From assembly GCF_000344615.1 (NCBI RefSeq), contig NZ_KB467826.1:1-64000 (forward strand): 64,000 nucleotides of DNA. Reading direction: 5' to 3'. Source of the stretch: Janthinobacterium sp. CG3 (lineage in GTDB: Bacteria > Pseudomonadota > Gammaproteobacteria > Burkholderiales > Burkholderiaceae_D). Shown here in pieces: positions 21,493-40,949 of this stretch (positions are counted from its first letter, which is position 1; each line of letters starts with the position of its first letter). The notes below the pieces were generated by a model. The model had not been told where the DNA came from and made no database searches. It worked only from the letters and a program-made list of their open reading frames with translations. The position numbers and the translations under genes are program-made.

Positions 21493-21493
21493 G

Positions 21494-22396: not shown

Positions 22397-22408
22397 GGAA
22401 GTGCCCCT

Positions 22409-23179: not shown

Positions 23180-25713
23180 GCTGTACCCCCGTAGTTATTG
23201 AGTTTGAGGCCCTTTACGGCGAGCCATTCATGTATCCAGTTATCGCCGTGGACCGCTTCCAGCTCCTTGATCTTGGCAATCGACTTCTTGTCGGTCGAGC
23301 CGGCGAACGCCAGGGCCAGCGGTCCAAGGGCGGCCTCGTAGAGCCGGCGCCCTGCCTCGGAAACGACGTAGTATTGGCGCTTCGGCAGCGCCGTTGCGAT
23401 GATGTCGATTTGCTTGGTATTGAGGCCGGTCTGCTTGTAGAGTGCGGTGGCGGCTTCGGCTTTGGCGTCTTTGTTTGGCAGGTAAATCCGTGTCGCGGTG
23501 GATTCGACAATGATGTCCATAATCCCGCTCTTGGCAGCTTCCGCCAGGCTTTGCGTGGACAGCAACACGACGCAGTTCAACTTTGCGAACGAGCGCAGCC
23601 ATTCCTCAATCTTGTCCTTGAACGCGGGATGCGCGAGCATCAGCCAGGCTTCGTCAATGAGGATCATCGCCGGCTGGCCGACCAGGCTAACTTCGATGCG
23701 GCGGAACAGGTACAGCAGGACCGGCAAGGCGAATTTTTCGCCGAGCTTCATCAGCTTCTCAATCTCGAAGGTCGTGAACTTCGACAGGCTTAGGCCGTCT
23801 TCCTCGGCATCGAGAAGGTGGCCCATCAAGCCGGCCACCGTGTATTGCTCCAGCGCCGCACGAATCGACTTGTCCTGAATCGTGAGGACAAAATCGGTCA
23901 AGGTCTTGCCGCCGCTCTCCTTCATGTTGAAGATGGCCTCGCCGATTCCATTGCGCTGCTCAGGCGTGGTGATGAGGCCATTGAGGGCGCAGCAAGTGTC
24001 GATCCACCCCATCGCCCAGGCACGGTCGCTCTTGGTCTCCAGGTACTGCAGCGGGCAGAATGCAAGCGTGCTGTCGTCGGACCCGACCTCGTAGTGATCG
24101 CCGCCGACACCCTTGGTTGTCGGGTACGCGGACATGCCCTTGTCGAACCAGTAGATCGACATGCCCTCGTAGCGCAGCGCCTGCAAGGCGATCAGCGCCA
24201 GTTTGGTGGACTTGCCCATGCGGGTCGGCCCAAGCATCAGGGTATGGCCAAGGTCGAGCCAATGCAGATTGAGCCGGAACGGGGTGGCGCCGTGGGTGAC
24301 GCAGCTCATCAAGGGCGGCGAGTTCGGCGGGTACATCGGGCATGGCGCGTAATTGAGCCCGGTCCAGATCGTGCTGGTTGGCAGGAGGTCGGCCAGGTTC
24401 ATCGTGTGCAGAAGTGGCCGACGAACGTTTTCCACACCGTGACCTGGCAGGCTGCCCAGGTAGGCGTCCAGCGTGTTGATCGTTTCAACCCTCGCGCTGA
24501 ATCCAATCCTGTTGATGGACTTCTCGATCATCGAGGCCGATGCCGCCAGTTTGTCGCGGTCCTCGTCCATGAGGACGACGACGCTGGTGTAGTAGCCTTG
24601 CGTAATCAGGCCGCTATTGGTCTCGGCGATGGCCGAGCCGGCGTCAGCCACCATCGACACGGCATCCTCATCGACCGCCCCGGAATTGGTATTGAAAACC
24701 TGGTCGAAGAAGCCCCGGATTTTCTGCTTCCACTTCTTGCGGTATTTCTCCAAATGGGCGACGGCCTCATGGTGGTCCATGAAGATGAAGCGGGACGACC
24801 AGCGGTACTCGCATGGCTGCTCGCCGAGCGCCGTCAGGATGCCGGGCGTCGATTCCAGCGGGAAGCCGTCGATGGCCACCACCTGGACGAACTTGCGGCC
24901 GATCTTCGGCACGACCCCGGACCACATTTCCTGCGCTCCTATGAGCGTGTCGAGGTACATCGGGTTGTTGGGCAGCTGGATCGGATGGTTCAGGCCGGTG
25001 ACGCAGAACTGCAGCCAGCGCAGGAAGTCGTCATGCGTGACGGTCGTGCCGTCCTCCTGGACGATCTTCTGGCCGCGCAAGCGGGTGGTCTTGACGGCCT
25101 CCGACAAGCGCGCCTCGATGTTGGCGCAATCGCGCTTGAAGGCGTCGATCAGGCCCTGGGTGCGCGAGCGGTGGTTCTGCACGTCCGTTTCGTCATCGAA
25201 CATCATTTCGATGAACTTCTTCTCGGCCAGCAGCGGCGGGAAGTACGTTACGGTCAGGACGAAAAAGCCCTCGTACATAGTGCCAAGCCCCTCGAACAGC
25301 CGGCGCCGCTCTTCGTCAATCGCCTTCGAGAGCGGATCGGGAAAGCTCGACGCCGATGCCGGCGAGTAGTTCGGTGCCGGCCGGCGCACGGCGTCAACAT
25401 GGATCATCCAGCCGTTGCCCAACCCGGCCAGCGCCTTGTTGAGGCGAAACGAGATCATTTCGCGCTGGTCGTCGGTGCTGCTGGCGTTGTCCTCGCCCAT
25501 GTACAGCCAGGAGGCCATGAACGAGCCATTTTTTCCGACGATAATGCCGTCATCGACCATGGCGGCGTAGTTCAGGAGGTCGGCAAAGCCGGCCTCCTTG
25601 GAGCGGTGCTTTTTCAGCTCCAACTGGTTGTTCGCGGCCTGGATGCGCTGGAAGAGCAGCAGCAGCATCACGGCCCCGAGGACCGCGATGGTGATGGTTA
25701 TGGTGGTAATCAT
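23176..25713 (-). CDS. trbE: TrbE, VirB4-like ATPase
   Basis: 845 aa from the ATG at 25713, which overlaps the trbD stop (ATGA). Upstream in-frame starts lie inside trbD and are rejected; RK2 TrbE is 852 aa. N-terminal hydrophobic helix (ITIAVLGAVMLLLLFQRI), CagE/TrbE domain, Walker A GPTRMGKST, Walker B MILIDEAWLML. It energises pilus assembly and channel function at the inner membrane. Confidence 0.95.
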   Translation of the reverse strand: MITTITITIAVLGAVMLLLLFQRIQAANNQLELKKHRSKEAGFADLLNYAAMVDDGIIVGKNGSFMASWLYMGEDNASSTDDQREMISFRLNKALAGLGNGWMIHVDAVRRPAPNYSPASASSFPDPLSKAIDEERRRLFEGLGTMYEGFFVLTVTYFPPLLAEKKFIEMMFDDETDVQNHRSRTQGLIDAFKRDCANIEARLSEAVKTTRLRGQKIVQEDGTTVTHDDFLRWLQFCVTGLNHPIQLPNNPMYLDTLIGAQEMWSGVVPKIGRKFVQVVAIDGFPLESTPGILTALGEQPCEYRWSSRFIFMDHHEAVAHLEKYRKKWKQKIRGFFDQVFNTNSGAVDEDAVSMVADAGSAIAETNSGLITQGYYTSVVVLMDEDRDKLAASASMIEKSINRIGFSARVETINTLDAYLGSLPGHGVENVRRPLLHTMNLADLLPTSTIWTGLNYAPCPMYPPNSPPLMSCVTHGATPFRLNLHWLDLGHTLMLGPTRMGKSTKLALIALQALRYEGMSIYWFDKGMSAYPTTKGVGGDHYEVGSDDSTLAFCPLQYLETKSDRAWAMGWIDTCCALNGLITTPEQRNGIGEAIFNMKESGGKTLTDFVLTIQDKSIRAALEQYTVAGLMGHLLDAEEDGLSLSKFTTFEIEKLMKLGEKFALPVLLYLFRRIEVSLVGQPAMILIDEAWLMLAHPAFKDKIEEWLRSFAKLNCVVLLSTQSLAEAAKSGIMDIIVESTATRIYLPNKDAKAEAATALYKQTGLNTKQIDIIATALPKRQYYVVSEAGRRLYEAALGPLALAFAGSTDKKSIAKIKELEAVHGDNWIHEWLAVKGLKLNNYGGTA

Positions 25714-26021
25714 TTGTATTGTTTCCCTTGACTGGTGGGATTGATACGGAAGGGCGTGCTGCGGGCCGGGTAATACGACTTGTACTTGCGATGCCGTATG
25801 TAAACCTGGCGCATACGCGGGTCGGACTTGGCCATTTTCCGGAACATGTACAACGCCCCAAACCACAGCCCAAGTCCGACTACCGTCGCCCTGACCTCTT
25901 GTGCGCTAAATATCAGCGCAAATGCCATCAGCCCGGTAAACATCACCAGTTCACGATCCCCACCCATGAACAGGTTGTGTCGATTGCCGGCCCGACGAAT
26001 GGGAATCGTGCGGAGTGCCAT
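25710..26021 (-). CDS. trbD: TrbD, VirB3-like inner-membrane protein
   Basis: 103 aa, same size as IncP TrbD. Two adjacent hydrophobic stretches at about 26-58 (VMFTGLMAFALIFSAQEV, ATVVGLGLWFGALYM) and a basic C-terminus (YIRHRKYKSYYPA). It works with TrbE and TrbC in pilus biogenesis. Overlaps trbE by four bases. Confidence 0.9.
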   Translation of the reverse strand: MALRTIPIRRAGNRHNLFMGGDRELVMFTGLMAFALIFSAQEVRATVVGLGLWFGALYMFRKMAKSDPRMRQVYIRHRKYKSYYPARSTPFRINPTSQGKQYK

Positions 26022-26023
26022 AA

Positions 26024-26449
26024 CTATGCAACCCGGCCCGTTGCGGCCATTGCCAGGAACTGCACTTGTGTAGCCGCCGCATCGCCCAAGGCTGCAATTT
26101 CAGCGCCACGACCGAAGAAGGTGCTCATCATGTTTTGCGCGCCAACCAGGAAGGCCATGACCAGCACCAGGAACATCAAGGTACGGAAGAAGCCGTTCAG
26201 GTCGCCACCGAAGATCAGGACGCCGCCCGCGATCACGATGCCGATAATCGACAGCGAGAAAGCCACGGGGCCTGTCACCGAGTTACGCAGACTGGTGAGC
26301 CAGTCCTCGTACGGCAGCGCGCCGCCCGTGCCGGTAGAAGCCATGGCCTGCGGGAGCAGGAAGATGTAAGCGACGACAAGCGCGAAGGCGATGTAGAACA
26401 TCGTGGAGCGGTTGAGGGTGCCTGGTTGCGGGTAGAGAGTAGCGGTCAT
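26024..26449 (-). CDS. trbC: TrbC, cyclic conjugative pilin precursor
   Basis: 141 aa. A long leader ends [16 protein letters not shown]. The mature pilin core reads [38 protein letters not shown] and [17 protein letters not shown], very like RP4 TrbC. RP4 pilin is trimmed by signal peptidase, a host protease and TraF, then cyclised head to tail. The same Ser start and the conserved C-terminal GRGAEIA segment suggest the same processing by TraF at 45436. Confidence 0.95.
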
Positions 26450-26460
26450 GTGAAAAGCTC

Positions 26461-27426
26461 CTAGATGGTTTTGGTGATGTATTTGCCGTCGGCGTAGCCG
26501 GAAATCTCAAGGACTTCCTGTATTACGCGATGGCCGTCAGGGGTGCGGGCGATATGAACAACAACATGAACCGCATCGCCTATCAGCGGTTCAATCTTCG
26601 ACGGCGCCGCTTCGTTACGACTGATAAGCGACGCCAAGCGATCAAGGCCAGAGCTGGCCGTATTGGAGTGCAGCGTTGCTGCGCCACCCTCGTGCCCGGT
26701 GTTCCAGGCATCGAGCAGGTCCAGGGCTTCGGCCCCGCGCACTTCGCCGACCAGGATGCGGTCCGGGCGCATGCGCAGAACGAGTTTCAGCAGTGCCGAC
26801 ATGGGCACGTCAATGGTGGTGTGGTACTGCAGATAGTTTTCGGCGGCGCACTGGATCTCGCCCGTGTCCTCGATGATGCAAATGCGCTCCATCGGATCGC
26901 ACAGCACCATTTGATTGATGATCGAATTGACGAGAGTGGTCTTGCCCGAGCCGGTGCCACCGATGACCAGGATATTGCGGTGGTTCTTGACGGCCGCCTT
27001 GATGGCTTCATAGTGGCGCTGCGTCATGATGCCCGCCTCGACGTACTGCTCTAATGTGAAGATGAAGAGCGCCTTCTTACGAATCGCGAAAGTCGGCGCC
27101 GTCACAATCGGAGGAAGCTGGCCAGCGAAGCGGGAACCGTCGAGCGGCAATTCGCCTTCAATCTTGGGATCGTTCGCATTGATGGTCTTGTTGAGGCAAC
27201 TCGCCACGGTCTTGATGATGGCGGCGCCCCTTGCTGGTGGAAGCGTGCCGATGCACTTCATCTTTTCGCCAAGCTTCTCCTGCCACAGCTTGCCATCGGC
27301 ATTGAGCATCAGTTCGACCGTTTTGGGATCGTGCAGGGCCGCCAGCAGGAGTGGCCCCATGTCACGCTCAAGCTTGCGCTTGGCTCGATCCAGGCTGATA
27401 TCTGACCCGTCTTCTGATTCGTTCAT
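26461..27426 (-). CDS. trbB: TrbB, VirB11-like secretion ATPase
   Basis: 321 aa from the ATG at 27426 (RK2 TrbB: 320 aa), preceded by GGAGG. Walker [13 protein letters not shown], Asp box [14 protein letters not shown], Walker B-like [16 protein letters not shown], His box [14 protein letters not shown]. It forms a hexameric cytoplasmic motor at the base of the channel. First gene of the trb operon; expression should be under TrbA and KorB control. Confidence 0.95.
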
Positions 27427-27682
27427 GGTGTTCCTCCGGTCAATGTCGTCAATTCTACACGACGAAGGATATACCGAAACCATGTTTCGAACAATATTAT
27501 TAAAAATTTATCGTATTTTCCGAAGGAGAGTTGTTGTGTATCAAATCACAATTTCGCTGTACTTCATAGGGGAATTTGCTTACCATAGCCGCCTCGACGG
27601 CGGACTGCAGACACGTTGCGTGCCTGCTACTTGCATGAACTAATTTAGCTGCTAAAGATTTCCTGCCGTCACTCGAAATTAC
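27427..27682. promoter_or_regulatory. trbB promoter region with variant KorB operator
   Basis: About 255 bp, AT-rich (27480-27550), between trbA and trbB. It contains TTTAGCTGCTAAA at 27644-27656, a KorB operator with a changed central base, next to the 3' end of trbA. In RK2 the trbB promoter lies in the same place and is repressed by TrbA and KorB. Exact -35/-10 boxes are not assigned. Confidence 0.7.
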
Positions 27683-28054
27683 CTATCGAACTCTTCGGTT
27701 TAGCAGCTTCTTGCGGTTCTGCTCATCCCATTGCCTTACGGAAAACGCCTGGAACTCGGTAAGGATGGCCGTATATCGGACATATCCCTCGGGAAGACTG
27801 TGGATCACCTGGCCGCCAGCCAATGCTGCAAGCGTTTCCCGGTCCAAGTCGGTCATTTCCAGCAGCTCGGGCAGCGAGGTTTGCAACGCCTCCGCGATCT
27901 GCTCCATAACTTTCAAGGAGGGATTCGCCTTTCCATTGGTCAGGTCCGAGAGAAACGAGACCGAAATGCCGGCCCTGTCTGCAAGCTCGCTTTTTGTCAT
28001 GTGCCGTTCATCGAGCAGGCGCAAGATATTGGTGAATAGAATCTGGTTGTACAC
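27683..28054 (-). CDS. trbA: TrbA, transfer-gene repressor with KorA-type C-terminus
   Basis: 123 aa (RK2 TrbA about 120). N-terminus MYNQILFTNILRLLDERHMT is nearly that of RK2 TrbA, followed by an XRE helix-turn-helix (KSELADRAGISVSFLSDLTN). The C-terminal domain (VRYTAILTEFQAFSVRQWDE) is the dimerisation module shared with KorA and KlcB. It coordinates tra and trb expression. Upstream lie an OB site and a KorA-like half site. Confidence 0.93.
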   Translation of the reverse strand: MYNQILFTNILRLLDERHMTKSELADRAGISVSFLSDLTNGKANPSLKVMEQIAEALQTSLPELLEMTDLDRETLAALAGGQVIHSLPEGYVRYTAILTEFQAFSVRQWDEQNRKKLLNRRVR

Positions 28055-28088
28055 GGGAGGCCATTTAGTTTTTATAGTCAGCCGGAAT

Positions 28089-28131
28089 TTTAGCCGCTAA
28101 AGTTCCGGTCAAGGAAATTGTTTAGCTAGAT
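28089..28131. promoter_or_regulatory. trbA control region: KorB operator and KorA-like site
   Basis: TTTAGCCGCTAAA at 28089-28101 is a perfect OB. GTTTAGCTAGAT at 28120-28131 matches the KorA operator GTTTAGCTAAAC at 9 of 12 positions. Both lie within 80 bp upstream of the trbA start. Confidence 0.75.
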
Positions 28132-28451
28132 TAGATGCACGAAGCCAATATATCCGCGTAGCAACCGTTCTCTAGCTTCAATTTCTTGACAATATTACCT
28201 GTGATACCACGATTCGGGATACCCCTGTCTGTCGAGTAAATAGGGGGGGCATGATTGCTCAATGTCAAACGGGGAGCGTTTGGTGATGCAGTAGCGCAAG
28301 CTGGGGAATTTTCTGGGGTTTGGGCTTACACCCCCAAAACCGGCTATGGTGTGCTGCGCATCGAGCCTCCAAGAGCGGAGTCTCGCCCCTTCGGGCTGTC
28401 AGCGCCTTTCCAACGGCAAAGGCCACTTCTCACCCACCGGGCATAAAACAG
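28132..28451. other. Gene-free stretch between trbA promoter and first iteron cluster
   Basis: About 320 bp with no supported gene. It is AT-rich near 28140-28250 and contains a G-run (AGGGGGGGC near 28245). It adjoins the iterons and so may be part of the origin, but no DnaA box is visible. Confidence 0.4.
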
Positions 28452-28653
28452 CCCGAAGAATGTCCGAATACCCCGGCCGCGTCAGCGGCCAGGGAACCCG
28501 AAAAATGTCCGAATACCCTGGAAACACGTTCTCCTATGAAGGCATGCGGCTTTTTGGAGCTAAAAAAGGTAGCAAATAAACAATGTTTGCCCGAAAAATG
28601 TCCGAATGCACGCGTTTCGACGACCATAGCTCCAACCCGAAAAATGTCCGAAT
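28452..28653. repeat. Iteron cluster A (4 copies of an 18-bp repeat), downstream of rep
   Basis: CCCGAAAAATGTCCGAAT-type repeats at 28452-28469 (one mismatch, GAAGAATG), 28497-28514, 28590-28607 and 28636-28653, all in the same orientation with irregular spacing (45, 93, 46 bp). They lie directly after the 3' end of rep. These are presumed Rep binding sites forming part of oriV or a copy-control locus. Confidence 0.9.
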
Positions 28654-28663
28654 AGCCCCCCCG

Positions 28664-29419
28664 TCAGAGCAAACTCTGCTGTGGATTGACGCCGAACTTG
28701 AAATCGAGGCCGATCACCTTCCGGCCGGCCCGCTGAGCTTCCCACTCGATGAACATGTTGTTTTTCCCAACCAGCTCAATGACTGCAGGTTCGATCACCC
28801 GCGTCCGGATCGACTTGAAGTCCTTCTTGTAGCTATCGGGTACATCCATCGCGACACAGAAATCCTCTATCGAGGGCTGGTAGCGCCCGGTGTCCTGCCA
28901 GGACTGCAGGACCTCGAACAGGCGCCACGAATATGCCGACCGGAGGGCCGAGGCCTGGGTGAGCTTGTAGCTTGTGAACTCCTTGCGCAACCCGATCAGG
29001 TGCGGGACCACTTCATGCCACCAGTCCAGCTCGACCCAACCTTCGCCCTTGTGGTAGCGGACGGCGCCGCACCAGCGGAATTTGTACTCTTCCACACCCT
29101 TGCGCGTTTTGCGAAGCGTCCGTATGTAGCGGCCGAACAGAGTCTCGGAGGCCGACTGTAGCTGATCGTAAGCCGTGTTCATGTCAACGTTGAACGTCTC
29201 CGCATAATCGGCGGCCGACAACCGTACCTGCCAGGCCCCCCGCTGCTGCACTTGCGTCATGTTCGGGAGCTGGTCGGTCTTGGCGATGCACGCAGCAATG
29301 ATGCGCTTCTCGGCCAGGGACAGCCCGTGAGCGCTGCGCGTCAGGGCATTGCTCATGTTGACCTGTAAAACGCCTAACGGCTGTTCGGCATCGAGCTTGT
29401 GGACGTGTTGAAGTTTCAT
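28664..29419 (-). CDS. repA: Rep_3-family plasmid replication initiator
   Basis: 251 aa from the ATG at 29419; a TTG five codons upstream is also possible. Rep_3 (RepB/RepE-like) pattern with two winged-helix domains: LSLAEKRIIAACIAK, YDQLQSASETLFGR, FTSYKLTQASALRSAYSWRL, DFKSIRTRVIEPAVIELV. It has none of the motifs I know from IncP TrfA. Iterons flank the gene on both sides, as expected for its binding sites. It sits where IncP-1 plasmids would carry ssb-trfA and oriV, so the replicon appears to have been exchanged. Confidence 0.92.
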   Translation of the reverse strand: MKLQHVHKLDAEQPLGVLQVNMSNALTRSAHGLSLAEKRIIAACIAKTDQLPNMTQVQQRGAWQVRLSAADYAETFNVDMNTAYDQLQSASETLFGRYIRTLRKTRKGVEEYKFRWCGAVRYHKGEGWVELDWWHEVVPHLIGLRKEFTSYKLTQASALRSAYSWRLFEVLQSWQDTGRYQPSIEDFCVAMDVPDSYKKDFKSIRTRVIEPAVIELVGKNNMFIEWEAQRAGRKVIGLDFKFGVNPQQSLL

Positions 29420-29493
29420 GGTTCTCACTGGCAAGGGTTACTGGATTTCGGACACACACCGTGGTATTCGCACTTGAAACTATGACTGCCCTG

Positions 29494-29523
29494 ATTGTAG
29501 GCATCAGGACTTTTAAAAGTCAA
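29494..29523 (-). promoter_or_regulatory. Probable rep promoter
   Basis: Reading the minus strand, TTGACT (complement of 29518-29523) and TACAAT (complement of 29494-29499) are separated by 18 bp. They lie about 75 bp before the rep start and directly next to iteron cluster B, which suggests Rep autoregulation. Confidence 0.6.
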
Positions 29524-29541
29524 GTGTCCGATTAGCCACAA

Positions 29542-29693
29542 CCCGAAAAATGTCCGAATAGCGCCGATGCATACAACCCGAAAAATGTCCGAATGCCGGC
29601 GTCTTGCCAGCCCGAAAAATGTCCGAGTGGAACACCCGAAAAATGTCCGACTCGCCCGAGAAAAGTCCGATGAAACCCGAAAAATGTCCGATT
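29542..29693. repeat. Iteron cluster B (5 good + 1 degenerate copies), upstream of rep
   Basis: CCCGAAAAATGTCCGAAT-type repeats at 29542-29559, 29577-29594, 29611-29628, 29635-29652 and 29676-29693, plus a degenerate copy at 29655-29671 (CCCGAGAAAAGTCCGAT). A half copy (AAGTGTCCGATT) is near 29522. All share one orientation with cluster A. This is the best candidate for the core replication origin. Confidence 0.9.
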
Positions 29694-30324
29694 CTCTCTA
29701 AATAGAGAAACAGTTGAAACAAAAAACAGGAAACACAAATCTCCTACCCCGCAGAAACACTCATAGCGCTACGCGCGTGATTCGACTCCAGGCCCCCAAG
29801 GGGGCAATGAACTAACCCCCCCGACGAATGCGACGGCCAACAAGAGAATTGCGCAATGGGATTGCCAGCACCAAGGCCGCCTACCCTTCGGGCTTCGCCC
29901 TACGCCCCGCCGCTGCGCGACGGCCTGCGGGGCAAGCCCCGCGATCCTGCGGCCTGGAGCGGCCCGCTATGCCTTTGCAGAATAACAGGCCAAAAGTATG
30001 ACTCGATTATCGTACAGAAAAGCAATCGACGCTGCGGGCGGACGACGCCCGTTTGAAAGCCGGCGGCGTGCACTGGTCAGTAGGGTTTACGCCAAGGGAG
30101 GGCCTGGTTTTGACGCCGGCCCTGTAAGCGTCGATACCAGGGCATTCCAGCAGGTGCTGGCGCCATCGGGAGGGGTTTAGGGGTCGGATTTATCCGGCAT
30201 CAACCTTAACGCAGCCGGATCGACCCCTGCGCAAGCAGGGGCTTGATTTTGCGAAGCAAAATTCGACCGGAGACAAGCGGGGACGCCCGCGCTGTCAAGG
30301 CAACCAGTTGGCCTCTTTTTGGTG
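29694..30324. other. Gene-free origin-proximal region
   Basis: About 630 bp. After the iterons comes an A-rich stretch (about 29700-29745), a plausible melting region, then GC-rich DNA. A stem CCCCTGC(30224-30230)-GCAA-GCAGGGG(30235-30241) is present. No gene is supported on either strand. This may be part of oriV; no DnaA box was found by eye. Confidence 0.5.
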
Positions 30325-30419
30325 TTGACTGGTCAGAAAATTTAGCTAAACATTAACGAATTCTCTTTCCGATTAGGGCAATTTGCCCTATACTGTTGTT
30401 GAAGGCCGGGCAATTGCCC
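30325..30419 (+). promoter_or_regulatory. klcA promoter with KorA and KorC operators
   Basis: A -35 TTGACT (30325-30330) and -10 TAAACA (about 30347-30352) are spaced 16 bp. The KorA-type site ATTTAGCTAAAC (30340-30351) overlaps the -10. The 17-bp KorC-type palindrome TAGGGCAATTTGCCCTA is at 30374-30390, and a second related palindrome GGGCAATTGCCC at 30408-30419. RK2 klc/kle promoters are likewise repressed by KorA and KorC. Confidence 0.8.
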
Positions 30420-30874
30420 AGGTCAATAACCGGAGAACTCCGAAGGTCAATACGCAACAAAACCTTACCGTAACCGCTTCCCGTGTGCTGGATAATCAGC
30501 GCGAAAATTTCCTTCCCATGTACTTCGGCAGGTCGTTCATGTTGGGTGAGCCGTTCGTGTACGCCTGGCTTGATCGCCTTTCGGTGGACTACGACGGCGG
30601 CATGTGGGATTTCTTTGAACTGAGCAACGGCGGCTTCTACATGGCCCCGGTCGTGCCTGGCCCGTTGCGCATCGAGGTCCACGGCAATTACTACAGCGGT
30701 AGTGTGTCCGCCGACGCGGCCGGCATCATCGCCACGCTGTTCGCCATCAGCCAGCTTGCGGCCCAGGTAACGGACCCGGACGAATGCGGCCCTTTGATCG
30801 ACCGCTACCATCACCTACTTGAGTTTGCTGATTCACATGTCGAGGGCGGCGCCATCCTCCAGGCCATCGACTGA
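30383..30874 (+). CDS. klcA: KlcA (ArdB-type) antirestriction protein, start uncertain
   Basis: The conserved part begins TASRVLDNQRENFLPMYFGR and contains YAWLDRLSVDYDGG, LSNGGFYMAP, SADAAGIIATLFAIS and DECGPLIDRYHHLL, the ArdB/KlcA pattern; the family is about 140 aa. It inhibits type I restriction during plasmid establishment. No ATG or GTG lies just before the conserved part: the in-frame TTG at 30383, inside the KorC operator, is the longest choice (163 aa), and a GTG at 30482 would cut into the conserved start. A mutated start codon is possible. First gene of the kilC-like block. Confidence 0.85.
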   Translation: MPYTVVEGRAIAQVNNRRTPKVNTQQNLTVTASRVLDNQRENFLPMYFGRSFMLGEPFVYAWLDRLSVDYDGGMWDFFELSNGGFYMAPVVPGPLRIEVHGNYYSGSVSADAAGIIATLFAISQLAAQVTDPDECGPLIDRYHHLLEFADSHVEGGAILQAID

Positions 30875-30915
30875 TGAGGTTGGCCCTGGCCGCTAGGCCG
30901 GGGCCAATTACGACG

Positions 30916-31359
30916 ATGACAGACAACGAAAAAATCAATCTGCGAAACGAGGCGACCTACTCGCGGCGCTTGATGGGCACCAGCGTGACAGACCCGGCAA
31001 CCGAAAAGTGCCACCAGTGCGGGGAGCTGCTGCACCCTTACCCCAAGCCCGAATACTGGATGCAGTACCCACTGCCCGAGTGTTGCATCATCGACGGCTT
31101 GAAGATGTGCGAACCTTTTCGAAAGCCTGAGTGCGCCGACACCTACCTGGCCGGGCATCCGGCGCCGGCCGGCGAGCAGAAAATGGCGAAAATGCCGGCC
31201 AAGAAGGCGAAGACGGCCGTTGAACGGGATACGGAGCGCGGCGCGAAGCGGGACGCGGAGGCGGCAGCCGTGGCCGCCTCGATGCCGGTCGACCAGGACG
31301 GATTGCTTGCTGTGGCGAAGGAGTGTGTCGAGCTGTACAACAATGCTGGGGTAGGGTAA
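30916..31359 (+). CDS. Hypothetical Cys-containing protein between klcA and klcB
   Basis: 147 aa from ATG at 30916 (MTDNEKINLRNEATYSRRLM). Cysteines at KCHQCGELLHPYP, PECCIIDGLKMCE and KPECADTYL suggest a zinc-binding fold in the first 90 residues. The C-terminus is basic/Ala-rich and helical. It is inserted between klcA and klcB relative to RK2. Function unknown. Confidence 0.65.
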   Translation: MTDNEKINLRNEATYSRRLMGTSVTDPATEKCHQCGELLHPYPKPEYWMQYPLPECCIIDGLKMCEPFRKPECADTYLAGHPAPAGEQKMAKMPAKKAKTAVERDTERGAKRDAEAAAVAASMPVDQDGLLAVAKECVELYNNAGVG

Positions 31360-31373
31360 GGATTCGTGCGTAA

Positions 31374-32303
31374 ATGAGTAACATCTTGGAAAACCCTGTG
31401 GTTGAAGGCTCCGCCGTAAGTGCAAGAAAAACGAGCGTTTATCTTGTGGTCAAAAATCCGGCTACTTTGCCTGGGAAAAGTGCAAGAAAACTCATTGAGG
31501 AAATCAAAGCAATGTTCAAGACCTCGATTTCGCTTTTCTGGCACTGCCTCTTACTCATTTGCGAAGGAATCCTTACCGTCCCCCATGCTGTGTTGTCCCG
31601 AGCCGACTTTGCCGCCCTGGTCATCAGCGAGCGCTACGATGCCGCGATCTGGAAGCTCAACGGCGGATCGTTCTTCGGCTCCAATGCCGGCGATGAATCG
31701 GCCGGCACGATTGTCAGCCGGCACTGCCAGGCTGTACCTGGTGCGGTGCCGATGTGGGGGCAACAGGGGCAATTCATCATCGATGTGAAGGGTATCCGGT
31801 GTTGGGTGAAGTATGGCGGCAGTCTCGGTTCGGTCTTGAACTGTCATTTCGAGTTCAAAGCCCTGGACCTGGACGGGCCGTTCATTTCCGAAACCGGCTA
31901 CCGTTCGCATTTTTGCGGCGTGGTGCGTGGCCAGGCGGTGGATGCGGCGGCGGCGGCGATCTTCACCGGCTTCCTGGGCAAGCACAGGCGATATTTGGAG
32001 CCTTCTTACCAGGACAGCCTGGCGACCGACCAGCTGCCGGGCTGGATCAAGGCGCTCCCGGTCCAGCCAAGGCGCTCGCTGGCCGTCAGAGAGGCCCCGT
32101 GCGACGCACAGGCGCTGCCGGATGGCTTCGTCCTGGTGGACGTGGTGTTGACTGCCCGCCAGGCCTTCATCGTCCGCAAATGGGCCGAGGCGGCCCGTCC
32201 CAGGGTCATAGCGGCAATGCGTGAGGCGCAGAAGTCGCCGGCATCGGCGCCCGTGGAGCCAGCTCTTGCCGCCGCTGCGGCAGACGAAGGCGGCGGCGAC
32301 TAA
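31374..32303 (+). CDS. klcB: KlcB-like protein with KorA-type C-terminal domain
   Basis: 309 aa. The body includes IISERYDA-like VISERYDAAIWKLNGGSF, SRHCQAVPGAV, FIIDVKGIRCWVKYGGS and FEFKALDLDGPFISETGYRS. Near the C-terminus FVLVDVVLTARQAFIVRKWA matches the dimerisation module of KorA and TrbA, a known feature of RK2 KlcB. Position between klcA and korC also fits. It is shorter than RK2 KlcB (about 400 aa). An internal ATG at 31512 is an alternative start. Confidence 0.8.
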   Translation: MSNILENPVVEGSAVSARKTSVYLVVKNPATLPGKSARKLIEEIKAMFKTSISLFWHCLLLICEGILTVPHAVLSRADFAALVISERYDAAIWKLNGGSFFGSNAGDESAGTIVSRHCQAVPGAVPMWGQQGQFIIDVKGIRCWVKYGGSLGSVLNCHFEFKALDLDGPFISETGYRSHFCGVVRGQAVDAAAAAIFTGFLGKHRRYLEPSYQDSLATDQLPGWIKALPVQPRRSLAVREAPCDAQALPDGFVLVDVVLTARQAFIVRKWAEAARPRVIAAMREAQKSPASAPVEPALAAAAADEGGGD

Positions 32304-32564
32304 GCCGGGGCCGACGACCCCGAGCCTGGCCAGCGGTACAGGATCGTCAAAGTTCACCATCCCTGCTTTGATAAATCGCTTGGGAAAATTGTCGTTATAG
32401 CGAAAGTTTTCCCCGGAAAATGTAGCGTTTTCGCGCATGACGATAGGCCTCTTACCTACCGGAAGAATCGAAACGGGCGTATGGTTATTGACTATGATCC
32501 GAGGTGCGATCAAACCGTGTACAGCATGGATTCCCTCGAACGTATTTGACCATTGGAGACTGGA
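32304..32564. other. Intergenic, 260 bp, no gene
   Basis: Contains short palindromic A/T-rich segments (GAAAATTGTC ... GCGAAAGTTTTC, about 32383-32413) but no match to the KorA, KorB or KorC operators. It may hold the promoter for the 32565 gene. Nothing else readable. Confidence 0.4.
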
Positions 32565-32852
32565 ATGGATGAACAGACAGCGGTTGCGTTGTTGACGGAA
32601 AAGGTGCGTGAGTATGCCCAGGGACGGCAGCAGGACGTGGCACGAGGGGCCGAAAGGCCCCGCCTGGCCGCCTTGCTGGTGCAAAAGTATGGTTTGGGCA
32701 TTGTGGATACCGTCGCGCTCCTATTCGACTCGCCCAGGGCGGCCGACCCCATCAGCAAGGTTGTTGACGAGGAAACAGCTATCATTGATCCTGACTGGCA
32801 AGAGAACGACCGCCAGCGCTGGGCGGCCAGGCCGGCCGACCTGGCGCTGTGA
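32565..32852 (+). CDS. Hypothetical protein, 95 aa, between klcB and korC
   Basis: Starts MDEQTAVALLTEKVREYAQG at the ATG preceded by GGAGACTGGA. Helical, soluble, with ALLVQKYGLGIVDTVALLFD. No family recognised. Same operon direction as klcB and korC, ending 34 bp before korC. Confidence 0.65.
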   Translation: MDEQTAVALLTEKVREYAQGRQQDVARGAERPRLAALLVQKYGLGIVDTVALLFDSPRAADPISKVVDEETAIIDPDWQENDRQRWAARPADLAL

Positions 32853-32886
32853 CGAATACGAACAGGATCACCGAAAAGGACAGGGA

Positions 32887-33147
32887 ATGACTGAGGCATT
32901 TATCAGGGAAGGCTGCTTGCAGCCGGCCGCATCGTGGGAACAGCCGACCGGCGAAGAAGTGCGCGAGGTGTTACGCCTGGCGAGCTTTAAGGGCGGCCAG
33001 GCGGCAAAAGCGCTGGGCCTCGGCGCTAAAGGGGATCGCACCGTGCGGCGCTGGATCGGGGGCGATTCCTCGATCCCCTATGCCGCGTGGGCGCTGCTTT
33101 GCGACTTCGCCGGATTGGGTTCCATCTGGAAGCGCAAAGACGGCTAA
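32887..33147 (+). CDS. korC: KorC transcriptional repressor
   Basis: 86 aa (RK2 KorC 85). MTEAFIREGCLQPAASWEQP, then GEEVREVLRLASFKGGQAA with a helix-turn-helix and RTVRRWIGGDSSIPYAAWAL, the pattern of KorC-type regulators. KorC-type palindromes stand upstream of klcA (30374) and kleA (33227), so it should autoregulate its own operon and repress kleA. Operon order klcA-klcB-korC is that of RK2. Confidence 0.85.
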   Translation: MTEAFIREGCLQPAASWEQPTGEEVREVLRLASFKGGQAAKALGLGAKGDRTVRRWIGGDSSIPYAAWALLCDFAGLGSIWKRKDG

Positions 33148-33177
33148 AGCGAGAGCGGTTTTACTCCATAGGGAAAT

Positions 33178-33272
33178 TTTAGCAGCTAAATTTATATCAA
33201 TGTTTAGCTATATTCCGGTTGCATACTAGGGTAATTTGCCCTAGTATGCAAGTGAGGCCGGGCATATTGCCC
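33178..33272 (+). promoter_or_regulatory. kleA promoter region: KorB-like, KorA-like and KorC operators
   Basis: TTTAGCAGCTAAA (33178-33190) is an OB with altered centre. GTTTAGCTATAT (33202-33213) is a KorA-like half-conserved site. TAGGGTAATTTGCCCTA (33227-33243) is a KorC operator with one mismatch, followed by GGGCATATTGCCC (33260-33272). The layout repeats that of the klcA promoter, including the AGGTCAAT...ACCGGAG leader. Confidence 0.8.
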
Positions 33273-33294
33273 AGGTCAATTACCGGAGTTCCCG

Positions 33295-33522
33295 ATGAAA
33301 AAAATCATGCCATGGCTTGACCTGTTGAATGACGTCACCGCCACCGATTTCCCAGCTCGACGTGATCGTATCGCGGCCTTGATGGAGCAGGCGACAGAAC
33401 CAACGAACAACGCAGCTCACCTGTTGGCCGAGGCCTACGTGGAGGGTTGCAAACTGGAAGGCGATGCGAATGCGCATTGGTCAATCAAGGAAATAGAGCA
33501 GGCACAACTGTGTTCTGGATGA
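33295..33522 (+). CDS. kleA: KleA-like stable-inheritance locus protein
   Basis: 75 aa, starts MKKIMPWLDLLNDVTATDFP after CCGGAG. ARRDRIAALMEQA and AAHLLAEAYVEGCKLEGDA match the small KleA/KleC-type helical proteins. RK2 KleA is of similar size and follows korC with KorA/KorC operators, as here. Biochemical role not established. Confidence 0.75.
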   Translation: MKKIMPWLDLLNDVTATDFPARRDRIAALMEQATEPTNNAAHLLAEAYVEGCKLEGDANAHWSIKEIEQAQLCSG

Positions 33523-33637
33523 GTGGGAAGCTCCCCGGATCACTCCGGGGAACCTGGCCTAAGTACTGACATACTCAAGCCCAGGCGCGGACACCTGCAG
33601 CCAGTATTTGAACTGGAATGCGACAAGGGGTCAAGCT

Positions 33638-33943
33638 ATGACGAACATTGTGAAGTTCCCAGGTGCGAAACAAGAGCCACCGGAACAGCCGACTGAGGCA
33701 CCACGCGAGGCTCCAGCGCCTACGAGCGACCCTGCCCTGCTCAAGGGGATATGGGTCGTCACGGTGCTGCTGTGGCCCTTCCTGAAATGGATAGTAGCGC
33801 TTGATTGCGTCTACCAGATGGTGCGGATGATGTACCACTGGAACACGCCTGGGAGTTTTGCCGGTTTCAGATTCCTGCTGCACTTTGGTGGCTTCGTCGC
33901 ACTGACCTACTTCGTGTCGCTGTACAAACCGAAGGGTCTCTGA
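33638..33943 (+). CDS. kleE: KleE-like membrane protein
   Basis: 101 aa, starts MTNIVKFPGAKQEPPEQP, the KleE-type N-terminal VxFPG motif and Pro-rich stretch. Hydrophobic segments lie at about 36-58 (GIWVVTVLLWPFLKWIVAL) and 78-96 (FLLHFGGFVALTYFVSLY). RK2 KleE (about 109 aa) is a small membrane protein in the same place before korA. Other kle genes (kleB-D, kleF) are not seen. Confidence 0.75.
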   Translation: MTNIVKFPGAKQEPPEQPTEAPREAPAPTSDPALLKGIWVVTVLLWPFLKWIVALDCVYQMVRMMYHWNTPGSFAGFRFLLHFGGFVALTYFVSLYKPKGL

Positions 33944-33961
33944 CCCTGCAGGACCAAAATA

Positions 33962-34028
33962 GTTTAGCTAAATTATTTTCGTTTAGCTACCGAAAACGCT
34001 TGACCGCTTCGCAAAGTTTAGCTAAACT
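33962..34028 (+). promoter_or_regulatory. korA-incC-korB operon promoter with KorA operators
   Basis: The -35 TTGACC (34000-34005) and -10 TAAACT (34023-34028) have 17-bp spacing. A perfect KorA operator GTTTAGCTAAAC (34016-34027) overlaps the -10, as in RK2 where KorA autorepresses. Two further KorA-like sites stand upstream: GTTTAGCTAAAT (33962-33973) and GTTTAGCTACCG (33981-33992). Confidence 0.9.
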
Positions 34029-34079
34029 TTTACTTGTCGCTGGCTGACACCGGCATTTCAAAAACTAGGCGCGGAGCAA

Positions 34080-35171
34080 ATGACTATGGGTGAGATTGAT
34101 GAAAAAGAGGCTAACCGAGGCACAGTTTCAAGCGTGCATCAAAGACTTGGAAGTCGGGAAGCAAACCATCGAGATAGCACGGGCCGTGCTGGTGGACGGC
34201 AAGCCGCAAGCGGGATTCGTCAGCGCACTCGGCTTGACCAGGGGCGCAGTGTCCCAGGCAGTGCAGCGCGTGTGGACGGCATTCGAGAATTCAAATCTGC
34301 CTCAAGGGTACGAACGGGTAACGGCAATTCTGCCGGAACACCAGGCGTTCACGGTCAAGAAGTGGGCAGAGGAAGCAGCCAAAAAAAGGGGTTTCAAGGC
34401 ATGAGTCATACCATGGCAGTCGCGCAGCAAAAGGGCGGGGATGGGAAAACGGCGAGCGTTGTGCATTTCGCGTTCGACTTCTTCGAGCGTGGCCATCGTG
34501 TCGCGGTCGTTGACCTGGACACCCAAGGTAACGCCTCCCATACGCTCGAACAGTTTGCAAGCGGCTACGCGGCTAGCGCCATGTTCAGTGAGAGCGCCGA
34601 CAAGTTGAGCGCCCACTTCGGTGAATTGTCGGAAGGCCCTTTGCTTAGCCTGATCGCGGCCGACAAGGACCTGGCCAACATGGAAGAGCTGGATTTCGAT
34701 GAGGCCAAGGAATGCTTTAAGTCGAACATCGAGGCGCTGGCCAAGAGCGGCTACGACATTATTCTGATCGACAATGCCCCTTCCCTCGGCACCACCCTTG
34801 CGGCATCGCTCTATGCGGCCGACAGCGTGATTTCACCGATCAAGCCCGAGTATTACAGCATCATGGGCATCAAGAAGATGCTTACCGTGATCGCGAACGT
34901 ACGCAAGACAAACACCAAGCTGCAATTCATGGGCATGGTGCCAAGCATGGTGGATATGCGAAACCCCAGCCACGTCCAGAACCTGGCCGAGCTGCAGGAG
35001 GCGTATCCCAAGCTGATGATTCCCTTGACGATAGGGCTGCGCAGCAGCATCGCGGATGCGCTGGCCGACCAGATGCCGGTATGGCAGATCAAGAAAACTT
35101 CCGCCCGCAAGGCCGCCCAAGAGATGCGCGCCCTGGCCGCCTACGCAATCGAGAAAATGGAGATCAAATAA
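34080..35171 (+). CDS. incC: IncC, ParA-type partition ATPase (long form IncC1; IncC2 starts at 34401)
   Basis: 363 aa, RK2 IncC1 is 364. The first ~107 residues are read in a different frame from korA, which lies wholly within this part. An internal ATG at 34401, overlapping the korA stop (ATGA), gives a 256-aa IncC2-like form. Deviant Walker A AQQKGGDGKTASVV, switch regions DLDTQGNAS and ILIDNAPSLGTT. It drives plasmid positioning together with KorB bound to OB sites. Confidence 0.93.
   Translation: MTMGEIDEKEANRGTVSSVHQRLGSREANHRDSTGRAGGRQAASGIRQRTRLDQGRSVPGSAARVDGIREFKSASRVRTGNGNSAGTPGVHGQEVGRGSSQKKGFQGMSHTMAVAQQKGGDGKTASVVHFAFDFFERGHRVAVVDLDTQGNASHTLEQFASGYAASAMFSESADKLSAHFGELSEGPLLSLIAADKDLANMEELDFDEAKECFKSNIEALAKSGYDIILIDNAPSLGTTLAASLYAADSVISPIKPEYYSIMGIKKMLTVIANVRKTNTKLQFMGMVPSMVDMRNPSHVQNLAELQEAYPKLMIPLTIGLRSSIADALADQMPVWQIKKTSARKAAQEMRALAAYAIEKMEIK
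34099..34404 (+). CDS. korA: KorA (TrfB), global repressor, nested in incC1
   Basis: 101 aa from the ATG at 34099, exactly the RK2 length; a GTG at 34090 is also in frame. MKKRLTEAQFQACIKDLEVG, an HTH ALGLTRGAVSQAVQRVW, and C-terminal YERVTAILPEHQAFTVKKWA. It binds GTTTAGCTAAAC operators, which are present at korA, klcA and others, and acts cooperatively with KorB and KorC. The overlap of two reading frames here is conserved in IncP-1. Confidence 0.95.
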   Translation: MKKRLTEAQFQACIKDLEVGKQTIEIARAVLVDGKPQAGFVSALGLTRGAVSQAVQRVWTAFENSNLPQGYERVTAILPEHQAFTVKKWAEEAAKKRGFKA

Positions 35172-36202
35172 TGAACGCACCACAAACCATCGTGAAAAAG
35201 AAGAGCCGCCTGTCCGGTCTGTTGAACGACGACGCGGCCGATGGCGCAATATCTTCGCCCGCCGAATCGAACCAGCCGGCGGCGCCAGTGCAGACAGGCG
35301 AAATAATGCTGTTCGATATGGACCGGATTCATCCTGACCCGGACCAGCCGAGGTCCAAGGAAAACCCAGGGTTTTCGCCAGAGAGCATCGCCGAACTGGC
35401 GGCCTCGTTCGGCCCGACCGGCCCCAAGTCGCCTATCTCGCTGCGGGACCATCCGGAGATTCCCGGCGAGTTCATGATTAACCATGGTGAACGCCGTTAC
35501 CTGGCAGCGAAGTTCAAGGGCCTGTCGAAGGTCGGGGGCTTCCTCGACAACAACCATAACGAGGACGACCAGGTTATCGAGAACGTCCAGCGCGAAGACA
35601 TGACGCCGCGTGAAATCGCCGCCTACATCGACCGCAAGATGAAGAAGGGTTTCAAAAAGAAGCAGATCGCGGACCTGATCGGCAAGTCGCCATCCTTCAT
35701 CACCCAGCACGCCGCGTTGCTGGACTTGCCAGAGCCAATCGCCAAGGTGTTCAACTCCGGCCGCGCCAACGATGTGACGGTCGTTAGCGAGCTGGTGACG
35801 GCCTACAAGAAGAACCCGAAGGAAGTCGGGGCATGGCTTGAAGATGAGAACCAGGAAGTGACGCGGGGCGAGGTTAAGCTGCTGCGCGAGTTCCTGGACG
35901 ACAAGCGGGCAAGCGAACAGGGCGACCGTGACGGCGATACCGTTGACCTGGTGAGCGGCAAGACCGAAAACGAAGTCAGCAACGAAGAACAGGGCAAAGA
36001 GGCGAAGAAGGAAAAGGAAGCTGATCCCGAGAAGCTGAAAAAGGCGATCATTCAGGTCGAACACGACGGCCGCCCTGCCCGCCTGATTCTCACCCGCCGC
36101 CCACCGGCCGAGGGCTACGCTTGGATGAAGTATGACGATGATGGCGCAGAGTTCGAGGCAAGCTTGAGCGACGTAACGCTTGTCGCACTGCTCGAAGGCT
36201 AA
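35171..36202 (+). CDS. korB: KorB, ParB-family partition and repressor protein
   Basis: 343 aa; the ATG overlaps the incC stop (TAATGA). ParB N-terminal domain with MDRIHPDPDQPR and MINHGERRYLAAK, conserved ENVQREDMTPREIAAYI, HTH KKKQIADLIGKSPSFITQHA, a Lys/Glu-rich linker, and a C-terminal dimerisation domain (RPARLILTRRPPAEGYAWMK). It binds the TTTAGC(S)GCTAAA sites listed here, silences transcription over distance and works with IncC. Confidence 0.95.
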   Translation: MNAPQTIVKKKSRLSGLLNDDAADGAISSPAESNQPAAPVQTGEIMLFDMDRIHPDPDQPRSKENPGFSPESIAELAASFGPTGPKSPISLRDHPEIPGEFMINHGERRYLAAKFKGLSKVGGFLDNNHNEDDQVIENVQREDMTPREIAAYIDRKMKKGFKKKQIADLIGKSPSFITQHAALLDLPEPIAKVFNSGRANDVTVVSELVTAYKKNPKEVGAWLEDENQEVTRGEVKLLREFLDDKRASEQGDRDGDTVDLVSGKTENEVSNEEQGKEAKKEKEADPEKLKKAIIQVEHDGRPARLILTRRPPAEGYAWMKYDDDGAEFEASLSDVTLVALLEG

Positions 36203-38659: not shown

Positions 38660-39097
38660 TCAGTGCAGGACTGCCCACAGCGCGACGGCCGCCGCTGCCA
38701 TCGTCACGCAAGCGGCAAACACATTCAGCCTGGCGATCCTATGGGCATCGCGAACAGGGCCGGAAAACTTCGCTACGGCCGCTTCAATCTCCGTTGCAAC
38801 GCCCGCAGCAGTAGAGCGTGCGCCCTCCTGCATGAGCTGGTCGATGGCATCCTTGGCGGCCGACAGGGATGCGTTGAGGATGCGTTCGGCTTTTTCCCTG
38901 GCGTCATTCCCCCATCTGAGTGCCAGCGCCTCCAATTCCTCCTTGTACTGGTCGAGCTGGGCCTGCTGCGCCTTCGAGCTGTCCTGCAGCAGCCGATTGT
39001 TGATCGTCTGCAAAACAAGGATCGGATCGTCGCGAGACACGGCGATCCCGTGCTTGCTCGCGATTTCCTTGATGAGTTCTTCCAATTGATCGCTCAT
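38660..39097 (-). CDS. traM: TraM, IncP conjugation accessory protein
   Basis: 145 aa, same as RK2 TraM. MSDQLEELIKEIASKHGIAV and DDPILVLQTINNRLLQDSS are close to RK2 TraM. Helical middle, C-terminal membrane helix (IARLNVFAACVTMAAAAVAL). Its start overlaps the traL stop. The precise role in transfer is not known. Confidence 0.88.
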   Translation of the reverse strand: MSDQLEELIKEIASKHGIAVSRDDPILVLQTINNRLLQDSSKAQQAQLDQYKEELEALALRWGNDAREKAERILNASLSAAKDAIDQLMQEGARSTAAGVATEIEAAVAKFSGPVRDAHRIARLNVFAACVTMAAAAVALWAVLH

Positions 39098-39822
39098 CAC
39101 AGCACCGTCGCGTTATCCATCTGAGTGTAGACCTGGCCCTTGATGATTTTGAGGCGCTGGCGGGTCATGATCGTCAGCGATTCCTGCGCAATGGCCTGGT
39201 CGAAGGTCAGCCGGTCCTGGAGCATTTCCCCCAAGTCCCGGCCGTACGTTTCCTTTTTGAGCGACGGAAGCTGGATGATCGCGGATACACGGGCCTTGTT
39301 GGTCGTGTAGGCCTTCATCTGCTCGAATCCCTTGCCCTCATGTTCGATCGGTCCCCAAAATGGATTGAGCCACACCACGAACAGCGCCTCGGCCGGAAAC
39401 TGGCTCACGAGCTGGTTGAAGCCGCTGATCGTGTCCAGTAGAGCCTGGCCACCCGTGACAACCGTATGGACCACCAGTTCGTGCCCCATTTCGGCCAGCA
39501 GTGCCGGCACCTGGTTGCTGATGAGGAAATGGGACAGCGGGACGAAGGAGCTTGCCCCATTGTCGATGATGACATCGCCATTGGCCGCCGCGATCATTTC
39601 AACCAGGGTGTCGAAGCTGCGCGGATTGATTTCCTCGTTTTCCATTATTTCAAGGCGTTTTACGTTCAGCGACTTGTAGCCGCAGAACGTGGAGTTGACG
39701 GGATCGGTGTCGATATTGGTCGGTGGAGCGCCCTTATCGCTGATGAATTGGGCAAGAAACGCGGCGACAACCGACTTCCCAACGCCGCCCTTCCCTTGCA
39801 GAATAAAGTGTATTTTTGCCAT
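39097..39822 (-). CDS. traL: TraL, ParA/MinD-like P-loop transfer protein
   Basis: 241 aa, equal to RK2 TraL. Deviant Walker A LQGKGGVGKSVVAAFLAQ, Walker B-like GDVIIDNGASSFVPLS. Part of the leftward traK-traL-traM operon from oriT. RK2 TraL is dispensable in some hosts; biochemical role unknown. Confidence 0.9.
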   Translation of the reverse strand: MAKIHFILQGKGGVGKSVVAAFLAQFISDKGAPPTNIDTDPVNSTFCGYKSLNVKRLEIMENEEINPRSFDTLVEMIAAANGDVIIDNGASSFVPLSHFLISNQVPALLAEMGHELVVHTVVTGGQALLDTISGFNQLVSQFPAEALFVVWLNPFWGPIEHEGKGFEQMKAYTTNKARVSAIIQLPSLKKETYGRDLGEMLQDRLTFDQAIAQESLTIMTRQRLKIIKGQVYTQMDNATVL

Positions 39823-40223: not shown

Positions 40224-40389
40224 ATCAATTTTTCATCTGCTGGAAGTTCCATTTCTTGTCAATTTTTAGCCGTTTTTTACCCGGCTACGCACGATTATAT
40301 GGCGTATACGGTGGCTTTCGTCATATCCGTTGCAAAAAAGACGGGTTTTATTGATATAAAAGAGGATAAATCGAAAATGGAGTGGTATC

Positions 40390-40510
40390 ATTTCTTGGCG
40401 TAATCGACTCGTTGAGTCGGGCAGGATAGGTGAAGATAGCTATCCGGCAGGCCGGATATCTCTCTTCACGCTCCCTTATTCGCGCCTGCGGCGCTCAACG
40501 GGACTCCTGC
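40390..40510 (-). other. oriT: Origin of transfer (oriT), IncP type
   Basis: The minus strand reads CTTCACCTATCCTG/CCCG at 40435-40418, identical to the RP4 nick region; the expected nick is between 40422 and 40421 on the minus strand. To its right a 17-bp imperfect inverted repeat TGAAGATAGCTATCCGG (40431-40447) / CCGGATATCTCTCTTCA (40452-40468) and CTCCCTTATTCG, the inverse of the RP4 GAATAAGGGA segment, fit the TraJ binding site. It lies between divergent traK and traJ, as in RP4. Confidence 0.93.
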
Positions 40511-40945: not shown

Positions 40946-40949
40946 AAAC

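Follow-up and report, generated by a model that had tools for sequence, protein, structure and literature searches.

IncP-1 plasmids are widely tracked by trfA, the gene of their initiator. Among the described systems closest to the locus analyzed here are pAKD4 and the plasmids of X. hyacinthi and Acidovorax, which fall in the same PLSDB replicon cluster and which we take to represent the IncP-1 delta group. Primers for trfA are in use for IncP-1 plasmids (PMC9499019). In the delta plasmids trfA occupies the slot in the order trbA-slot-klcA-klcB-korC-kle-korA-incC-korB-kfr-tra, and TrfA iterons are found in those of X. hyacinthi and Acidovorax. The DNA studied here, a 64,000-nucleotide stretch of Janthinobacterium sp. 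CG3 (the window), consists of bases 1-64000 of C3, a 123,449-bp contig of a genome in 7 contigs (G000). It shares the gene order of the delta plasmids, the KorB site at trbA and a TraE that is 81% identical to those of three delta-group plasmids (79% to that of G003, versus 34-43% to those of seven others). Unlike them, it has in the slot a Rep_3 replicon and an apparent 83-bp remnant of oriV.

Between 14.9 and 52.9 kb the window carries a transfer and Kor-control backbone of the IncP-1 type, with a Rep_3 protein as its initiator. A first-pass annotation had described this combination and proposed that the replication module was swapped. Pfam matches to Rep_3 domains and tblastn searches with 43 pAKD4 proteins as queries (cut-off 1e-3) confirmed the former statement. 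The latter is well supported by a promoter scar, the remnant of an IncP-1 oriV and the presence of relatives of the cassette on small contigs from the same family of bacteria. Very probably, trfA and almost the whole of oriV were lost from an IncP-1-type plasmid, which acquired, in the trbA-klcA slot, a Rep_3/iteron cassette of the kind carried by those small contigs. The scar, the remnant, the absence of trfA, the partial relatives of the cassette, and the Kor genes with their operators beyond its limits can be read directly from the DNA. Screens that rely on trfA to track IncP-1 plasmids would miss plasmids built in this way.

The Rep_3 cassette and the trbA-klcA slot

The rep gene (28664..29419, minus strand) starts with an ATG at 29419, within a TTG-started open reading frame (ORF) that extends to 29434. 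Its product matches Rep3_N (PF01051, 2.7e-35) and Rep3_C (PF21205, 1.3e-14), the WH1 and WH2 domains, as well as the PDB sequences 1hkq (2e-18) and 1rep (3e-11). As the first-pass annotation had stated, this initiator is accompanied by 18-bp iterons. The 18-mer CCCGAAAAATGTCCGAAT occurs on both sides of rep in nine copies with at most 1 mismatch and one copy with 4, and 50 mononucleotide shuffles of the 1.35-kb segment produced no match at ≤3 mismatches. Four iterons are located on the 3′ side of rep (28452..28653, plus strand) and six, including the one with 4 mismatches, on its 5′ side (29542..29693, plus strand). A DnaA-box-like site (29532, 1 mismatch) lies ahead of the 5′ iterons, which are followed by a tract that by eye is A-rich (about 29694-29745). 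The rep promoter, TTGACT-N18-TACAAT (29494..29523, minus strand; 10/12 consensus), was the best of 3 promoter matches in 27600-30500, where shuffles led us to expect 1.6. It is bracketed by two inverted TGTCCGA half-iterons (29448-29454 and 29525-29531), located beside the −35 and downstream of the −10, that are likely sites of Rep autorepression. Other Rep_3 plasmids limit their copy number through iterons. In the cassette, Rep would bind the 18-bp iterons and replication would start near the A-rich tract. Rep dimers would repress the rep promoter through the two half-iterons, and the iterons would limit copy number, replacing KorA/KorB repression of trfA as the control.

The cassette spans about 28.42-30.30 kb. 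Its right end was taken to be a block (30214..30297) that is common to L054, a contig from genome G359, where it lies upstream of a related rep (84.5% identity over 84 columns, E 2e-14). Beyond it, the IncP-1 backbone resumes at the klcA promoter region (30340..30390), with a KorA-like site at 30340-30351 and a KorC-like site at 30374-30390. DNA similarity to the upstream regions of IncP-1 klcA genes begins at about 30370. Based on these landmarks and on the limits of the block matches, the left junction was placed within 28418-28452 and the right one within 30297-30370.

A trfA gene with an RK2-like oriV was not found on the same replicon. The pAKD4 TrfA query had no match on C3 by tblastn at 1e-3, and a search of C3 for TrfA iterons at ≤2 mismatches yielded two unclustered matches (0-9 in five shuffles) and no cluster. 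Within the genome, the TrfA family is matched solely on C4, a distinct contig of 6,640 bp, in agreement with the earlier statement that the initiator is not TrfA; C7 (6,041 bp) carries a second, distant Rep_3. The Pfam scan outside the IncP core of C3 covered 30 larger ORFs, of which 20 lie past base 64000 and 10 close to the window ends, and a further initiator may exist among the small ORFs of that part.

Scars of the former replicon were detected between trbA and the first iterons. The left anchor of the slot is trbA (27683..28054, minus strand; 62% identity to pAKD4 TrbA, HTH_3 1.1e-14), which by its name is presumably the repressor of the trb operon. Upstream of it, a KorB operator (TTTAGCCGCTAAA, 28089..28101) is an exact match to the consensus and occupies the equivalent position in pAKD4 and in G003:C27, a 58.9-kb contig; the site scans used presumed consensus sequences for the KorA, KorB and KorC operators and a presumed RP4 nick motif. 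The following segment (28102..28296) aligned to the same region of G003:C27 with a local score of 70, which was reached by 0 of 500 shuffles (maximum 36), and was considered a remnant of the divergent trbA/initiator promoter. Within it, a degenerate KorA operator with 2 mismatches (GTTTAGCTAGAT, 28120..28131) is found where pAKD4 has GTTTAGCTAAAC; the G003 contig is likewise degenerate at this point. The pAKD4 counterpart of the scar combines a perfect KorA site with a KorB site, and in the window the KorB site is intact. This degenerate operator probably belonged to the former trfA promoter.

The putative trfA deletion junction is occupied by a copy of a short dispersed sequence (28301..28337, GGAATTTTCTGGGGTT..GGCTTACA). 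Its 26-base pattern occurs four times in the genome when ≤2 mismatches are allowed (never with the backward pattern as control), and G003:C27 has one copy as well. The idea that it is the end of the neighbouring insertion sequence (IS) was rejected: the ten long genome matches of this IS stop short of it.

An 83-bp block (28336..28418, plus strand) resembles a segment found near TrfA iterons in IncP-1 oriV. It shares 81% identity with the X. hyacinthi and Acidovorax plasmids (6e-14), 76% with R751, 74% with pBP136, 77% with contig L059 of the family and 84% with genome G011, and there are matches of 31-32 bp to pYKBR041 and pKJK5. TrfA iterons are located near the block in these six plasmids and in L059; the R751 stretch examined has only one near it at the cut-off used, and the pKJK5 piece is part of an accessory region. 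The stretches compared from pAKD4 and pAKD16 do not include the region of the block. In the window the block has no iterons, and trfA, which would be expected between the promoter scar and the block, is gone. From these similarities, the replaced origin appears to survive as a fossil beside the new replicon.

Relatives of the cassette and other occupants of the slot

The relatives of the cassette are found on small plasmid-like contigs. On the 9.9-kb contig L010 of Massilia sp. IC2-477, Rep is 83% identical in amino acids and rep 76% in DNA; its iterons are located on both sides of rep, and the DNA shares 78% identity over 122 columns with the 5′ iterons of the window. The 9.1-kb contig L054 has a Rep with 70% identity in addition to the right-end block. 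Unlike the window, neither L010 nor L054 had matches to IncP transfer or Kor proteins at 1e-4, except for ParA-type matches to IncC and TraL. A DNA search of 392 genomes of the family located the rep part, among the matches listed, in 2 other genomes, G149 (with the coordinates of the Massilia contig) and G359. Within the genus, Rep was matched in 1 of 40 genomes, that of the window itself. The top-ranked Rep match in PLSDB (72,556 records) had 53% identity, and none of the best 5000 records reached 60%. Two chimeric Rep+TrbA queries against this database, in which 384 records carry TrbA at 1e-15, gave Rep-only or TrbA-only alignments among the matches listed (30 and 15 rows), with the sole exception of a low-identity 71% alignment to Pandoraea apista; at least three and at least one records at 80% coverage are outside the matches listed, and a Rep-TrbA match among them is possible. 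Pattern scans for relatives of Rep, which reach close relatives only, produced none in IMG/VR and one match in genome contigs. Larger or transfer-bearing plasmids with a related Rep from P. fungorum, Pandoraea commovens, X. taiwanensis and P. aromaticivorans had no IncP kor or klc genes annotated in the stretches shown.

Other loci were surveyed through TrbA, which was detected at 1e-15 in 14 of the 392 family genomes, the own one included, giving 14 other loci. Comparison of 13 of them (G244 was left out) identified a TrfA-family gene at one and a Rep of the window type at none; two of the 13 contigs run for only 0.6 and 2.4 kb past trbA. The contig of G125, the closest backbone, ends about 2.4 kb beyond trbA and has no TrfA or Rep match before its end. 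A survey of the class (5 of 369 genomes, own included) added five TrbA loci, which had no match to TrfA or window-type Rep at 1e-5 in the stretch compared. G003:C27 carries a TrfA-family gene with 55% identity to the C4 TrfA and 26.6% to that of pAKD4. In G641:C2 and in MEALZ_p an RPA-type initiator (97.3% identity between the two) is located between trbA and kleE/korA. Because an RPA initiator, the atypical, small-plasmid-like TrfA of G003, TrfA/oriV and the Rep_3 cassette all occupy the slot, it is possibly an exchange site. We find it reasonably likely that the trbA-proximal slot is a recurrent socket for the exchange of whole replicons, with the Kor circuit and the transfer genes staying. 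If so, an exchange would let an IncP-type plasmid change its incompatibility and its copy control in one step. Two IncP-1 plasmids described as 97% alike except for trfA2 (64%) (PMC9499019) could represent a milder form of such an exchange.

An IncP-type trbA locus is present in the 643-kb contig G011:C22 (L050 2980-3340), where a KorB site is followed by the oriV block 247 bp from trbA. No TrfA match and no window-type iterons were found at this locus. These features are relevant to a two-step variant of the preferred history, in which trfA and oriV would have been lost in an integrated relative and the Rep_3 cassette captured later. The variant is tentative, somewhat short of an even chance. 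Both the composition of the G011 locus and the finding of a TrfA-family gene at only one of the 13 family loci are consistent with it, but G011 could equally have lost its replicon after integrating, its integrated state is putative, and its leader region alone is not significant (18 of 500 shuffles reached the score).

Backbone genes, their phylogeny and the phage-like segment

The IncP-1 order is kept on C3 from trb and trbA through klcA, klcB, korC, kleA, kleE, korA, incC, korB and kfrA-C to tra. The tblastn search placed the trb mating-pair block, trbB to trbP, at 14944..27483 (minus strand). On the plus strand it placed klcA (30449..30874, start codon provisional; 58% identity to pAKD4 KlcA, Antirestrict 1.2e-29), klcB in two pieces (30916..32537), korC (32887..33147; 79%), kleA and kleE (33304..33943; 53% and 52%), korA (34090..34404; 77%, KORA 9.4e-33) and incC with korB (34086..36202; 57% and 62%), incC overlapping korA. 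The traM/L/K genes, oriT and traJ/I/G/F/E/D/C lie at 38717..52851. The klc, kor, kle, incC and kfr genes listed in the first-pass annotation were located, klcB being split by an insert. Its claim of all trb and tra genes stood for most of them; the TrbK and TrbO queries, and that for KleF, had no match on C3 at 1e-3, and the matches were partial for TrbM (residues 1-83 of 197) and TrbL (475-533 of 580). The RP4-type oriT and the Kor operators that it reported were also recovered: an RP4-like nick sequence at 40422, between traK and traJ, nine exact KorB sites on C3, all within 14-46 kb, the KorA-like site at 30340 and KorC-like sites at 30374 and 33227. The 223-bp insert in klcB (31355-31577) has inverted ends (17/20 matching) and resembles a miniature transposable element. 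Outside the backbone, C3 carries plasmid chemotaxis genes (receptors, CheW, CheB and a CheA-like kinase) and a PAS/GGDEF/EAL signalling cluster (window 1489-7417 and 55257-57639; L009 7310-18371).

The TrbE of the window shares 87% identity with that of G125, 75% with G003, 70-73% with eleven other IncP-type molecules, 65% with G715a and 61% with pDS1. In a trbB+E+I tree (16 taxa, 1621 columns) the window grouped with G125 (100/100) and both with G003 (99.4/99), and the node that unites the delta plasmids with the window group, against the rest plus pDS1, had values of 100/59. In a traG+I+korB+korA tree (12 taxa, 1798 columns) the window and G003 grouped with 100/100 and the delta split had 92.7/83. 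Both concatenations, rooted with pDS1, placed the window backbone beside the delta plasmids. The first-pass annotation had also offered that the locus belongs to a separate lineage sharing the IncP regulatory circuit. Such a lineage would never have had TrfA and would have its Kor circuit and transfer genes in common with IncP-1 through descent or exchange, much as RA3 (IncU) and PromA plasmids have parts of them. RA3 is an example of Kor genes living with another replicon, and the divergence is deep: among the PLSDB matches listed, the best TrbE had 70.9% identity and the best full-coverage KorB 57% (at least two KorB records with identities of 60-80% lie outside the matches listed). The trbE and korB trees discussed below favor it as well. 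A separate lineage of this kind would leave unexplained the promoter remnant with its KorB site and degenerate KorA site, and the oriV block, which is near TrfA iterons at seven of its eight other detected locations, G011 being the exception. In addition, the transfer genes are of the IncP-1 type, unlike those of RA3 by annotation. The oriV remnant in particular largely contradicts a separate lineage, which we regard as very unlikely.

The transfer backbone is followed on C3 by a phage-like segment (58984-108268; window 58984-64000, L007, L008 and L009 to 4268). An IS6-type element is present on C3 in three near-identical copies (825 bp aligned; DDE_Tnp_IS240) and one 90% copy at the window start. 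Two copies, one with its end at 58983 and one with its start at about 108268, are identical and in direct orientation; the 8-bp AGGCATCG is found just inside both junctions of the segment, as expected if this 49.3-kb inner part were a target circle captured in a cointegrate via the IS6-type element. The sequence CCTTCAAG borders the copy whose end is at 109092 and recurs in inverted form next to the one whose end is at about 54054, and window positions 53230-58983, between two inverted IS6-type copies, appear to have been inverted. The segment encodes portal, major head, tail-type and internal virion proteins, an integrase, ParA/ParB, a RepO-like protein and a 4300-aa ORF with DarB-like and ADP-ribosyltransferase-type matches. 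The head protein is 43% identical to that of the top named phage among the matches listed and up to 84% to IMG/VR contigs apart from one 49,424-bp record with an identical head protein; this record shows no difference in the 37 kb compared and is apparently the same segment. Two TnpB-like (OrfB_IS605/Cas12f1-like) genes are located early in it (L007 4046-5287 and 7716-9152).

The RepO-like candidate (367 aa) shares 54% identity with a helix-turn-helix (HTH) protein from a Cupriavidus plasmid and about 30% with entries labelled "Replication protein O"; its HTH_36 and RP-C matches are below the cut-off. The present molecule may carry two replicons. With this protein and parA/parB in the captured segment, the contig could now replicate from it and the Rep_3 cassette be a passenger. 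We consider this improbable: rep, its promoter and the iterons look intact, and joining by an IS6-type element left an 8-bp duplication inside the junctions, so that the IncP part probably pre-existed alone and would have needed an initiator of its own.

Several observations weigh against a replacement of trfA/oriV by the Rep_3 cassette. Rooted with pDS1, the trbE and korB trees alone put the window and G003 outside the delta and other IncP-1 plasmids (69 and 70), and two relevant nodes of the concatenations have ultrafast bootstrap (UFBoot) values of 59 and 61. Beyond the KorB site, the promoter scar is by itself only weakly similar to pAKD4 (a score equalled in 4 of 500 shuffles), and the reference contig from G003 has a TrfA unlike that of IncP-1. 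Two of the eight plasmids with the region downstream of trfA/oriV, p7ME01 and pDS1, have no match to the oriV block at 0.01. No single known molecule contains all of the cassette, which matches one contig at one end and another contig at the other, with short matches only at about 29.74-30.21 kb. Finally, because the phage-like module has parAB and a weak RepO/RepC-like gene, Rep_3 is possibly not the only initiator today.

Kor control and comparison with known systems

The operator scan found no Kor operator touching the rep promoter (29523-29494), as the first-pass annotation had stated for KorA and KorB sites. The nearest KorB site, at 28089-28101, is 1.4 kb away and the nearest KorA-like site (≤2 mismatches), at 30340, is 0.8 kb away. 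KorA and KorB would no longer act directly on initiator synthesis, and their operators persist at trbA, klcA, kle and the kor genes. The further proposal that replication is uncoupled from the Kor circuit is right for direct operators but is not established as a function, since KorB can act over more than 1 kb. In RK2, KorB is described as silencing over such distances jointly with KorA (PMC11790492), and by analogy a long-range action of KorB on the rep promoter is possible in principle. In RA3, a KorB/KorC-controlled promoter beside the replicon is reported to activate oriV by transcription into it (PMC9455977). The promoter scan of the window found no counterpart of it: a reverse promoter of this kind at the KorC site was discarded, as there was no minus-strand promoter match near 30.34-30.40 kb. 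The case poses the question of whether the Kor network can run a plasmid whose initiator the Kor proteins no longer repress.

In the mainly open-access literature, covered at the level of titles and the opening of abstracts, no description was found of a Rep_3 replicon occupying the trfA slot of an IncP-1 backbone. Plasmid pMBUI2 was considered as a precedent and dropped; its transfer genes resemble those of pSN1216-29, so that its backbone is not clearly IncP-1 (PMC6232296). Like the window, the IncU plasmid RA3 combines KorA/IncC/KorB/KorC-type control genes with a non-TrfA replicon. Its transfer genes, by annotation, are not the IncP-1 trb/tra set, whereas those of C3 match pAKD4 and keep the IncP order. 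MEALZ_p, from Methylotuvimicrobium alcaliphilum 20Z (NC_016108), resembles the window in the IncP-type arrangement trbB-trbA-[initiator]-kleE-korA-incC-korB, where the slot is filled by an initiator other than TrfA. It differs in that this initiator is of the RPA type (PF10134 in the 97.3% relative from G641) and in that two further RepB-type genes are annotated.

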